From NCBI RefSeq assembly GCF_037201915.1, contig NZ_CP147505.1:3038001-3102000 (forward strand): a stretch of DNA of 64,000 bases, written 5' to 3'. Under the pieces are notes generated by a model. That model worked only from the letters and a program-made list of their open reading frames with translations. It ran no database searches and had not been told where the DNA came from. Source of the DNA: Haloplanus sp. CK5-1 (GTDB lineage Archaea > Halobacteriota > Halobacteria > Halobacteriales > Haloferacaceae). The position numbers were made by a program, and so were the translations under genes. Below, piece by piece: positions 45,486 to 48,376 of this stretch (its first letter is position 1; every line of letters starts with the position of its first letter).

Positions 45486-46439
45486 TCACTCCAACCGGCC
45501 CACGTCCGAGAGGATCGCCGTCGCCGTCTCCGGCCCGCCGGCACCCCGGCCGCTGAGGTGCAGCTGGCCGGCATTGACCGTCTCGAACTGGACGATGTTT
45601 CGCGTACCCGTGACCGCCAGCGCGTCGTGTTGCGGGACGAGACGCGGACCGACACGGACGCCCTCGGCCGTCGCCTCGCCGATGAGGCGGACCGTCCGGC
45701 CGTCCTCGCGCGCCAGTTCGAGAGCGCTCGCCGGGAGGTCGCGAATCCCCTCGACCGAGGCGTCCTCGAGGCTGTACACCCGATCGCCCCCGCTGAGCAC
45801 GTTCGCCAGGATGACGAACTTCAGCGCCGCGTCGGTCCCCTCCACGTCGAAGGCGGGGTCGGCCTCGGCAACGCCGAGGTCCTGTGCCTCGGCGAGGACG
45901 TGTTCGTAGCCCAATCCCTCGGCGGCCATCCGCGAGAGGACGAAGTTCGCCGTCCCGTTGAGGACGCCCCGGGTGGCCGTGATCTGGGACGGGCCGAAGT
46001 CGGCGATGGTCGAGAGGATCGGAATCGCGCCGCCGACGGCCGCCTCGAACTGCACCGTCCCCTCGCTTTCGGCTTCGAGCGCCATCAGGTCGCCGTACCG
46101 CTCGGCGACGGGACCCTTGTTCGCGAGCACCGCGTGACGGTCCCGCGTCAGCGCCGCCGCGACGTGGGAGAACCCGGGTTCGGCGTTGCCGAGCGTCGTC
46201 GGCGTCGCCTCGACCAGGACGTCGTAGTCGGCCGACAGCGCGTCTTCGGGATCGCCGGTGCCGACAACGCCCTCGCGTTCCTTGCGGTCGAAGACCGCGT
46301 CGGCGTCGATACCGTCGGGATCCACGGCGGCCGAACTGGAGTCGGCCACCGCGGTCACGACGTGGCCGTACTCGGGCGCGAGGTCGACGACCGATCGACC
46401 GACCGCACCGACGCCGATCACCGCGATGTCGAGGCTCAT
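45486..46439 (-). CDS. hom: Homoserine dehydrogenase
   Basis: A 317-residue enzyme reducing aspartate semialdehyde to homoserine, the branch point to threonine, methionine and isoleucine. The cofactor motif AVIGVGAVGRSVVDLA is at 5-20, the catalytic region reads VLANKGPVAERYGDLM, and GGAIPILSTIADF and GVLNGTANFVLSRM (about 160-175) are the substrate-binding blocks. It has no ACT domain of its own, unlike many homoserine dehydrogenases; the ACT protein encoded just upstream probably supplies it. ATG at 46439 overlaps the ACT stop as ATGA. Confidence 0.95.
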   Translation of the reverse strand: MSLDIAVIGVGAVGRSVVDLAPEYGHVVTAVADSSSAAVDPDGIDADAVFDRKEREGVVGTGDPEDALSADYDVLVEATPTTLGNAEPGFSHVAAALTRDRHAVLANKGPVAERYGDLMALEAESEGTVQFEAAVGGAIPILSTIADFGPSQITATRGVLNGTANFVLSRMAAEGLGYEHVLAEAQDLGVAEADPAFDVEGTDAALKFVILANVLSGGDRVYSLEDASVEGIRDLPASALELAREDGRTVRLIGEATAEGVRVGPRLVPQHDALAVTGTRNIVQFETVNAGQLHLSGRGAGGPETATAILSDVGRLE

Positions 46440-47011
46440 TCCGACACCTCCACGAGCGGTTCGATGACGTCGAGACCCTTGCTGTCGGCGATGTCGCGGA
46501 CGTGGTCGAACACCTCGTCCGTGCGACCGGTGCGGGTCGCCAGCCGCAGGCGGGCGCTCGACGCCCCGTTGCGACCCTGATGGGCAGACAGCGAGAGGTC
46601 CGAGAGCGTCGCGTCCGTGCTCGACTCGATGCAGCGAAGCGTATCGGAGAGGTCGGTGTCGACGATGTCGCCGACCAACAGGAGCGTCAACTGCTCGCCG
46701 TACCGCTCCGCGCCAGCCTGGACGACGTTGACACCCTCCTCGCGGAGCGCCTCGACGATGCTCTCGAAGCGATCCGGCGGACACTCCACGTCGACCTCGA
46801 CGGGGATGTGTCCCCGTGGCGTGAGGTTGCCGCGTTCGTGGAAGATCGACAGCAGGTTGCCGCCGTTGTCGGCGATGGGGCGAAGCGCCGATAGCAGTTC
46901 GCCCGGCTTGTCGACGAGTTCCAGCCGGATCGTGTGCGTCTGTGGTCGCTCGCCACCGTCGGTTCGCTCACCCTCTTCGTCCTCGTCGGTGGTGACTGCC
47001 TCGTCGGGCAT
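46436..47011 (-). CDS. ACT-domain amino acid-sensing protein, partner of hom
   Basis: A 191-residue protein. After an acidic 24-residue tail, residues about 25-100 form an ACT domain: HTIRLELVDKPGELLSALRPIADNGGNLLSIFHERGN, with GHIPVEVDVEC as the second strand. Residues about 105-190 form a second regulatory-like domain (GEQLTLLLVGDIVDTDLSDTLRCIESS; RLATRTGRTDEVFDHVRDIADSKGLDVIEPLVEVSE). ACT domains bind amino acids and tune biosynthetic enzymes, so feedback control of hom is likely. The 4-base ATGA overlap with hom implies coupled, roughly equal synthesis. A 39-codon leader frame ends exactly at its ATG. Confidence 0.88.
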   Translation of the reverse strand: MPDEAVTTDEDEEGERTDGGERPQTHTIRLELVDKPGELLSALRPIADNGGNLLSIFHERGNLTPRGHIPVEVDVECPPDRFESIVEALREEGVNVVQAGAERYGEQLTLLLVGDIVDTDLSDTLRCIESSTDATLSDLSLSAHQGRNGASSARLRLATRTGRTDEVFDHVRDIADSKGLDVIEPLVEVSE

Positions 47012-47131
47012 TCAGGCCGTCACCCCCACGGCACGACCCGTCGGCCGAATAATTGTGATCGGCGACGGGGACGGACCGCGGGGTAGCTCCGTGCCGACAC
47101 GTCGACTGCCGGTGGTCGTGCCGCTAGGCAT
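47012..47131 (-). CDS. 39-codon leader ORF upstream of the ACT-hom pair
   Basis: A small frame starting MPSGTTTGSRRVG and ending ...ITIIRPTGRAVGVTA, in the same frame as the ACT gene, with its TGA immediately followed by the ACT ATG. Seven of 39 residues are Thr and three Ile, products of the pathway that hom feeds. A TATA box (TTATAC, 47153-47158) is centred about 25 bases before the small ATG, so the transcript would start at or near that ATG and the ACT gene would be read by termination-reinitiation. This could be a regulatory leader peptide. Chance is possible because Thr is common in this genome. Confidence 0.45.
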   Translation of the reverse strand: MPSGTTTGSRRVGTELPRGPSPSPITIIRPTGRAVGVTA

Positions 47132-47152
47132 GGTACACACTGTGCCAAGGGA

Positions 47153-47158
47153 GTATAA
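47153..47158 (-). promoter_or_regulatory. TATA box of the leader/ACT/hom transcript
   Basis: TTATAC on the minus strand within tcttatactc, centred about 25 bases upstream of the leader ATG (47131). A second AT-rich site, acaattattc at 47047-47056, could instead serve the ACT gene alone with a short leader. Confidence 0.5.
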
Positions 47159-47194
47159 GACAGCATCGGTCGATCCTCGGCGTCGAGGTGGCGG

Positions 47195-48376
47195 TCAGAC
47201 CGAGGCAGGACCCGTCGCGGACGGCCGCCCCGCGTCGACGGTCGCCGGAGGGTCGGCGCGCTCCTGGGTGAGAGTGACGACGGTCCAGCCGTCGTCCGTC
47301 CTAAAGGAGAGGGAGCCACCTGCCGACTCGGCGACCGAGCGTGCGACCCAGAGGCCGAGGCCGCTGCCGTGTGTGAGTTGTGTGATCTGCGTCTCGCCCG
47401 TGATCACGTCGCGCTCGTCCGCGGGGATGCCGGACCCGTCGTCGGCGACGTGGACACGAACCTCGTTGCCGTCGGCCGCGGCCGTGACGCGGACCCGCGA
47501 CCCGCCGTGTTCGACGGCGTTCTCGACCAGTTCCGCGAGCGCCGTCTCGACGTCCTCGTCGGCCCACATCCACAGGTCGTCGGGCACGTCGACGGTGATA
47601 TCGACGTCACCGACGAGTCGGGTGTCGTCGACGGCGGCCGCGACGGCGTCGCCGACGTGCAGGCGCGCGTTCGACGCCGAGTGTCGGTCTAGGGCGTCCA
47701 CCAACACTTTGGACTTGTCCGCCAACTCGCCCACGTCCCGCGACCGTCGGGTGAGCGTCGCGGCGACGTCCGACAGCGGCGACTCGTCGAGTTCGGCCGC
47801 CAACCGCTCGGAGTGGCCGACGAGCACCGTGGCGTCGTTGCGGAGGTTGTGTCTGAGGACGCGGCTCAGGACGGCGAGTTTCTCCCGTTCGCGGGCCAAC
47901 TGCTCGGCCCGTACCCGTCTGGCGTCGTGGACGCCGATGATGACGTGGGCGGCGGCGCTGATCGCGAGGACGTTCCCGGCCGCCAAGGCGTCGGCCACGC
48001 TCACCGTTCCGAGTGTCCCTCGATAGACGCCGTGGAACAAGAGTACGGACCCCAAGACGACCAGACCGAGGACGTTCCACGCCGCGATCCGAACCGCGTT
48101 CGGCGTCGAGAAGCCACTGCGGTACAGCGCCGCGCCGGCGGCGAGAAGCCCGAGACAGACGACCCCCCCGAGGACCGCGAGCCCGGCACCGACGACGGGG
48201 CGGGACCCCACGAGGAACGGCGCGAGGTTCGGGGCGAGGAGGGCGACACCGGTCAGACTGACCGCGGAGCAGGCACCGAAGCGCGCGAGGCGTTCCCGCC
48301 GTCGACCGCCGGGGCTCGGTCCCGGCTCGAACAACCGGACGAGCGCCCGGTCGAGACGAGTGAATAACTCTGTCAT
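47195..48376 (-). CDS. Membrane sensor histidine kinase
   Basis: A 393-residue protein with several N-terminal transmembrane segments (about 35-160) and no recognisable extracellular or PAS domain. The kinase core has the H box VLRHNLRNDATV (about 190), N box LAELVENAVEHGG (about 285), G1 DDGSGIPADE and G2 THGSGLGLWVARSVAESAGG. The HNLRN H-box is typical of haloarchaeal kinases. It would phosphorylate a response regulator, none of which lies nearby (orphan). The start MTELFTRLD at 48376 places the first helix correctly. It lies downstream of aEF2, with an 80-base gap. Confidence 0.9.
   Translation of the reverse strand: MTELFTRLDRALVRLFEPGPSPGGRRRERLARFGACSAVSLTGVALLAPNLAPFLVGSRPVVGAGLAVLGGVVCLGLLAAGAALYRSGFSTPNAVRIAAWNVLGLVVLGSVLLFHGVYRGTLGTVSVADALAAGNVLAISAAAHVIIGVHDARRVRAEQLAREREKLAVLSRVLRHNLRNDATVLVGHSERLAAELDESPLSDVAATLTRRSRDVGELADKSKVLVDALDRHSASNARLHVGDAVAAAVDDTRLVGDVDITVDVPDDLWMWADEDVETALAELVENAVEHGGSRVRVTAAADGNEVRVHVADDGSGIPADERDVITGETQITQLTHGSGLGLWVARSVAESAGGSLSFRTDDGWTVVTLTQERADPPATVDAGRPSATGPASV

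Follow-up and report, generated by a model that had tools for sequence, protein, structure and literature searches.

The window (the whole 64,000-nucleotide stretch of Haloplanus sp. CK5-1 DNA that was analysed) carries on its minus strand an ACT-domain protein gene and hom, which together stand at the head of threonine and isoleucine synthesis, preceded by a short open reading frame (ORF), hereafter the leader. No nucleotide separates the leader TGA from the in-frame ACT ATG at 47011, and hom starts within the end of ACT through an ATGA overlap. Before the promoter, a histidine-kinase-like gene of this strand ends at 47195. In ACT, the best-matching named record is a Haloplanus, at 93% identity. 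The hom assignment rests on a strong Pfam match and the ACT assignment on a weak one, slightly under the curated cut-off. The positions of the P2 strands in the window were set by eye, via homology to a 42-nt P2 block in other genera. The features are as follows.

47158-47153, minus strand: TATA box TTATAC of the leader promoter, 27 nt 5' of the A in the leader ATG (read from the sequence)
47012-47131, minus strand: 39-codon leader ORF, given with its stop (ATG 47131-47129, TGA 47014-47012), predicted peptide MPSGTTTGSRRVGTELPRGPSPSPITIIRPTGRAVGVTA
47114-47128, minus strand: 5' strand of stem P1, CCTAGCGGCACGACC, codons 2-6 (cognate-duplex test and minimum-energy fold)
47088-47097, minus strand: 5' strand of putative stem P2 (outer TCGGC, inner ACGGA), coding for most of the 'VGTE' motif
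47059-47075, minus strand: 3' strands of P2 (inner TCCGT 47071-47075, outer GCCGA 47059-47063), ending at the Thr/Ile codons
47048-47059, minus strand: Thr/Ile cluster ATC ACA ATT ATT (Ile-Thr-Ile-Ile), in the leader frame
47026-47038, minus strand: 3' strand of P1, GGTCGTGCCGTGG (cognate-duplex test and minimum-energy fold), overlapping the Shine-Dalgarno in Haloplanus
47020-47027, minus strand: ACT Shine-Dalgarno GGGGGTGA, within the leader end and coding for 'GV' (read from the sequence)
46436-47011, minus strand: ACT-domain protein gene (Pfam ACT, E 1.7e-5)
45486-46439, minus strand: hom, homoserine dehydrogenase (Pfam Homoserine_dh, E 8.5e-49)

The first-pass annotation had described a 39-codon frame whose TGA directly precedes the ACT ATG in the same frame, a TTATAC about 25 bases before the small ATG (27 nt as measured here), and seven Thr and three Ile among the 39 residues, all of which were confirmed. 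An in-frame GTG lies 9 nt 5' of the leader ATG in the window; it is not the conserved start. Aligning relatives, the check that the annotation had proposed, showed that the ORF, the TATA spacing, the junction and the Thr/Ile codons are kept across Haloferacaceae. Within Haloplanus, the leader ORF and its TGA-ATG junction were present in 12/12 genomes, with identities of 0.91–0.96 for the leader, 0.85 for the promoter, 0.31 upstream of the promoter and 0.87 for the ACT core. Variable leader sites were spread evenly over the three codon positions (7/9/9) and third-codon-position identity was 0.91 in the leader vs 0.69 in ACT, indicating that the leader nucleotides themselves are constrained.

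In the wider Haloferacaceae, where the leader ATG was picked solely by its distance from the TATA box and coupling was not required, the ORF ended -8 to +1 nt from the ACT start in 74 of the 77 loci with a TATA-spaced ATG. The TATA-ATG distance in these 74 coupled loci was 27–32 nt (mostly 30), and the coupled leaders came in 19 different ORF lengths. Coupling by chance would be expected in ~17% of cases per lineage (mean over shuffled sequences with a free frame, used in place of the value of 0.56 obtained if shuffles keep the frame fixed). Most genera have an ATGA overlap, with the leader in a different frame from ACT and still ending at the ACT start. The ACT gene was found in all genomes searched, and hom lay directly 3' of it in 109/110 loci. 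On these comparisons, a conserved, start/stop-coupled leader ORF before ACT-hom is very probably real.

The long leader was also found in Halobacteriaceae (L127, L128, L205). Natrialbaceae carried a 14-15 codon coupled ORF before ACT-hom (L112, L115, L117, L118, L120, L199, L206-L209), of the form M(T)T..RPQ.GG..DG and with a stop that overlaps the ACT start by 8 nt; the Thr/Ile cluster was absent from these short ORFs. No leader ORF was seen in Haloarculaceae and Halorussus, where ACT itself stands directly behind a TATA box. In one Haloferacaceae genus (g3; L081-L083, L085, L089, L084), an apparent short GTG-started ORF lacking the cluster replaces the leader and, as read by eye, has an ATGA overlap with ACT. 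Many genomes also contain a second ACT copy, ~60% identical and lacking a long leader (L090-L092).

The first-pass annotation had pointed to the Thr/Ile richness of the peptide. Thr made up 15.4% of leader codons, compared to 6.4% for ACT genes and to 6.0% and 9.0% when the leader DNA is read in its two other frames; overall richness proved not to be what matters, as most leader Thr positions drift and one cluster alone stays in place. Of 45 lineage representatives, most have ACA ACA as this cluster, which lies in the leader frame throughout, even as its distance from the leader ATG varies (codons 23-28). Thr/Ile codons served to place the cluster by eye, and its purity is partly by construction. 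Where ACA ACA is substituted, the replacements are mostly Thr/Ile codons (ATC ACA ATT ATT in the window, and ACA ATT ATC, ATA ATT or ATA ATC ACG elsewhere), and a few lineages retain a single Thr at the position. The ungapped P2 alignment comprises 19 sequences, in which 37/38 codons after the hairpin encode Thr or Ile. ACA accounted for 114/335 (34%) of Thr codons in leaders vs 106/1265 (8%) in ACT genes (Fisher p 1.4e-28, an optimistic value given that the sequences are related). A near-identical MPSGTT start is common to Haloplanus (L001-L012) and the distant genera g5/g17 (L047, L064, L069, L072, L075), which also partly share CCGATCACAATTATT at the cluster, with ACAACA in the genera between them. 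An internal TATA (ACAATTATT) was considered as a second ACT promoter and rejected, the AT-rich string not being retained in most genera, which have ACAACA there.

Comparison revealed two conserved RNA stems in the leader. P2 is a hairpin; its 5' strand corresponds to a recurrent '(I/V)(G/D)(T/A)E' motif and its 3' strand runs up to the Thr/Ile codons. In an alignment of 19 ungapped 42-mers, 85% of cells paired and 5 pairs were changed on both sides, the covariation score was reached by 0/500 shuffles, and sliding the strands lowered pairing to 28–39%. P1 pairs leader codons 2-6 with the stretch before the ACT Shine-Dalgarno. When cognate strand pairing was compared to pairing with the partners of other lineages, P1 gave z=-4.2 and P2 z=-5.3 (each 0/5000 permutations), statistics that ignore the relatedness of the sequences, and pairings of the Shine-Dalgarno were not significant in the same test. 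The single-sequence minimum-energy fold of the window recovered P1 clearly (fold z -3.2) and favoured other local hairpins over P2. A covariance model of the leader (R1), trained without Haloplanus, matched the window leader as the sole hit in its genome (E 0.0045, a rough value), and all of its strong matches among 119 Haloferacaceae genomes were at ACT-hom. No Rfam family matched the leader; the one match returned was at chance level (E 4.3). Loop nucleotides are not conserved in the manner of an aptamer, and an unpaired AC-rich stretch adjoins P2. The ACT Shine-Dalgarno was kept as GGNGGTG in most genera, and the conserved GT, GTE and GV/EV residues of the peptide are best explained as RNA-stem strands plus this Shine-Dalgarno.

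Control by leader peptides is classic for bacterial amino-acid operons. In its enterobacterial form, attenuation at the thr operon leader (thrL), a small ORF with tandem Thr/Ile codons is combined with alternative RNA stems. Like thrL, the haloarchaeal leader is a short ORF that carries tandem Thr/Ile codons, precedes the first genes of the Thr pathway and has the potential for alternative stems; it differs in having a leaderless start, a stop coupled to the start of the next gene, mostly one or two key codons in place of a long Thr/Ile run, and no terminator hairpin with a U-run. Both a leader ORF directly before a biosynthetic operon and codons for the products of the pathway are conserved in place, as in attenuators. 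No terminator-like site (hairpin plus U-run) was detected in 46400-47300, and the leader therefore falls outside the transcription-attenuation class, although it would act like bacterial leader-peptide control. The leader-peptide logic proposed in the first-pass annotation is the reading best supported by conservation. The leader peptides of erm genes are translational attenuators, and here, likewise, a ribosome stalled on the leader ORF could reshape the RNA at the start of the next gene; unlike in erm, the signal would be tRNA charging, and stop and start overlap. Release of the Shine-Dalgarno gained no support in a mask model for a single stalled ribosome, and modest support for a queue (see below).

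Among haloarchaeal systems, the leader most directly invites comparison with gene pairs coupled by termination-reinitiation, which mostly have a 4-nt stop/start overlap and an intragenic Shine-Dalgarno (Huber 2019, PMC6728339; Huber 2023, PMC10666635). The leader stop likewise overlaps or abuts the ACT start, with a Shine-Dalgarno just upstream, and by anatomy, as read from the sequence, the leader-ACT pair belongs to this group; it differs in that the upstream partner is a short leader with a Thr/Ile cluster and stems, and no enzyme gene. In H. volcanii, translational coupling was strict in 9/9 gene pairs, including that of an amino-acid-binding protein and hom, and coupled pairs showed no de novo initiation at the Shine-Dalgarno; a premature stop in ACT abolished translation of the downstream hom, a result that concerns ACT-to-hom and not leader-to-ACT coupling (PMC6728339). 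Small ORFs ahead of haloarchaeal protein genes were also surveyed in H. volcanii, where uORFs of 15-31 aa were described in 5'-UTRs of 150-250 nt (Babski 2016, PMC4983044); unlike the leader, these follow no amino-acid codon logic. In the open-access literature, to which our search was confined, we found no published case of an archaeal amino-acid leader.

We consider it probable (roughly 60%) that the leader ORF is a conserved, cis-acting element that ties ACT-hom expression to Thr/Ile decoding, and sensing of Thr/Ile by the leader is probable to the same degree. In the proposed mechanism, the transcript would begin at or beside the leader ATG, giving leaderless initiation, and ribosomes would translate ~34-60 codons, crossing P2 and the Thr/Ile tandem, which consists mostly of the rare ACA. 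They would terminate at the stop, which overlaps or adjoins the ACT start, before reinitiating with the aid of the Shine-Dalgarno inside the leader, with hom in turn coupled to ACT. If the coupling rules of H. volcanii hold, ACT and hom would be translated only by ribosomes that have decoded the Thr/Ile cluster. When charged tRNA-Thr or tRNA-Ile is scarce, a ribosome would be slowed at the cluster and, alone or with a queue, would block P2 from reforming and alter the closure of P1, such that leader translation would report Thr/Ile supply to the operon. Sequence comparison establishes the two stems, the in-frame Thr/Ile codons, the coupled ORF and its promoter spacing. Leader translation, stalling and the amino-acid response are steps that we infer, and the direction of this response (derepression under starvation) is inferred from physiology only.

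An equilibrium mask model was used to estimate the accessibility of the ACT Shine-Dalgarno and start. A stalled ribosome changed mean accessibility from 0.395 to 0.393, which leaves unsupported the idea that a stall frees these sites, and a ribosome queue gave a modest rise to 0.447. Anti-Shine-Dalgarno pairing by codons 6-10 was not significant (z -1.3). Were ACT strictly dependent on completion of the leader, stalling at Thr codons alone would lower ACT-hom expression, opposite to the expectation for starvation. The fuller reading, namely a haloarchaeal amino-acid-codon switch in which leaderless ribosomes sense Thr/Ile-tRNA charging in a leader bearing P1 and P2 and relay it by termination-reinitiation, is tentative, at slightly short of even odds; as specified, this switch would operate with neither a terminator nor Shine-Dalgarno initiation.

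Several other explanations were weighed against sensing of Thr/Ile. The leader might be a uORF that only delivers leaderless ribosomes to ACT by termination-reinitiation, with ACA a slow site of rare codons and no sensing. A ribosome-delivering uORF has been proposed in general (PMC12548453), and the short coupled ORFs without a cluster in Natrialbaceae (14-15 codons) and in one Haloferacaceae genus (GTG start) would suit such a role; however, substitutes for ACA ACA are largely Thr/Ile codons and not other rare codons, two covarying stems and constrained third positions would be superfluous for delivery, and ACT is directly leaderless in Haloarcula and Halorussus; we consider this explanation unlikely. 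Less likely again is a structured RNA regulator to which the ORF frame would be secondary, working either as a riboswitch or as an operator for the ACT protein or threonyl-tRNA synthetase. Such an element would account for the covariation of P1 and P2, the constrained third positions and the unpaired AC-rich stretch beside P2, but not for a cluster that holds the frame of the ATG despite its varying distance (codons 23-28) or for an ORF coupled to ACT in 74/77 loci, and the loops lack aptamer-like conservation and have no Rfam match.

A nascent arrest peptide, with the leader peptide itself detecting Thr or Ile from within the ribosome tunnel, is suggested by the recurring MxxGT, (G/D)TE and TT motifs and would imply conservation of the peptide rather than of codons or RNA, which is not the pattern found in the leader. 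MxxGT, (G/D)TE and GV/EV fall on stem strands or on the Shine-Dalgarno, residues are exchanged in places (for example, E for K or A, or T for I, in the leaders of relatives), and synonymous sites are constrained as much as the rest; we consider an arrest peptide very improbable, and the idea of a conserved peptide was dropped once its motifs were mapped onto P2, P1 and the Shine-Dalgarno. The first-pass annotation had also allowed for a chance ORF or for an N-terminal extension of ACT interrupted by a stop codon. GC-rich DNA often contains open frames, and about half of the shuffled sequences stayed open when the frame was fixed, but conservation in relatives excludes chance, and the leader cannot be an extension of ACT, given that in most genera it overlaps ACT by ATGA in a different frame and yet ends at the ACT start; the probability left to these two explanations is close to nil.

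Haloarchaea mostly initiate translation without 5'-UTRs. In H. volcanii, Shine-Dalgarno motifs at 5'-UTRs are not used for initiation (PMC3986360), and on both counts a translation-sensing switch in haloarchaea must be built differently from its bacterial equivalents. The leader before ACT-hom seems to be an archaeal equivalent of the leader-peptide control found in bacteria. Ten Haloferax genomes carry it, which opens it to immediate testing in H. volcanii, a genetic model.

Elsewhere in the genome of the window, no similar leader was seen at PALP-family genes (including any thrC/trpB/ilvA), chorismate-binding genes, ilvB, leuA or aspartokinase-family genes. The leuA gene (2-isopropylmalate synthase; G000:C1:1895674-1896573, minus strand, outside the window) is a candidate for programmed +1 frameshifting, for which loci L234, L240 and L246-L275 were examined. 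The frame opened by its leaderless ATG (MSHNDTEDSSGSPAGRVLPG...) is shifted by one relative to leuA (...EFFQGTL...), and in the same sense in 30/30 Haloferacaceae loci; the leuA frame is devoid of any start codon in 17/30 of these. The switch point CGAGTTCTTC is invariant (zero frame CGA GTT CTT C, in which CTT is a Leu codon), and it looks as if leuA of Haloferacaceae needs a +1 frameshift; a review of archaeal recoding makes no mention of one in leuA (PMC8211752). Haloarchaea may control amino-acid synthesis in several translation-based ways, the leader switch among them (cf. leuA). Near 1894900 on the minus strand of the same contig, an ilvB-like gene (acetolactate synthase family; L214, G000:C1), with no TATA box at the usual distance, is preceded by a 17-codon ORF, MTDSHRQPPRHRHWRTA followed by a stop, which is joined to the start of the gene by an ATGA overlap.
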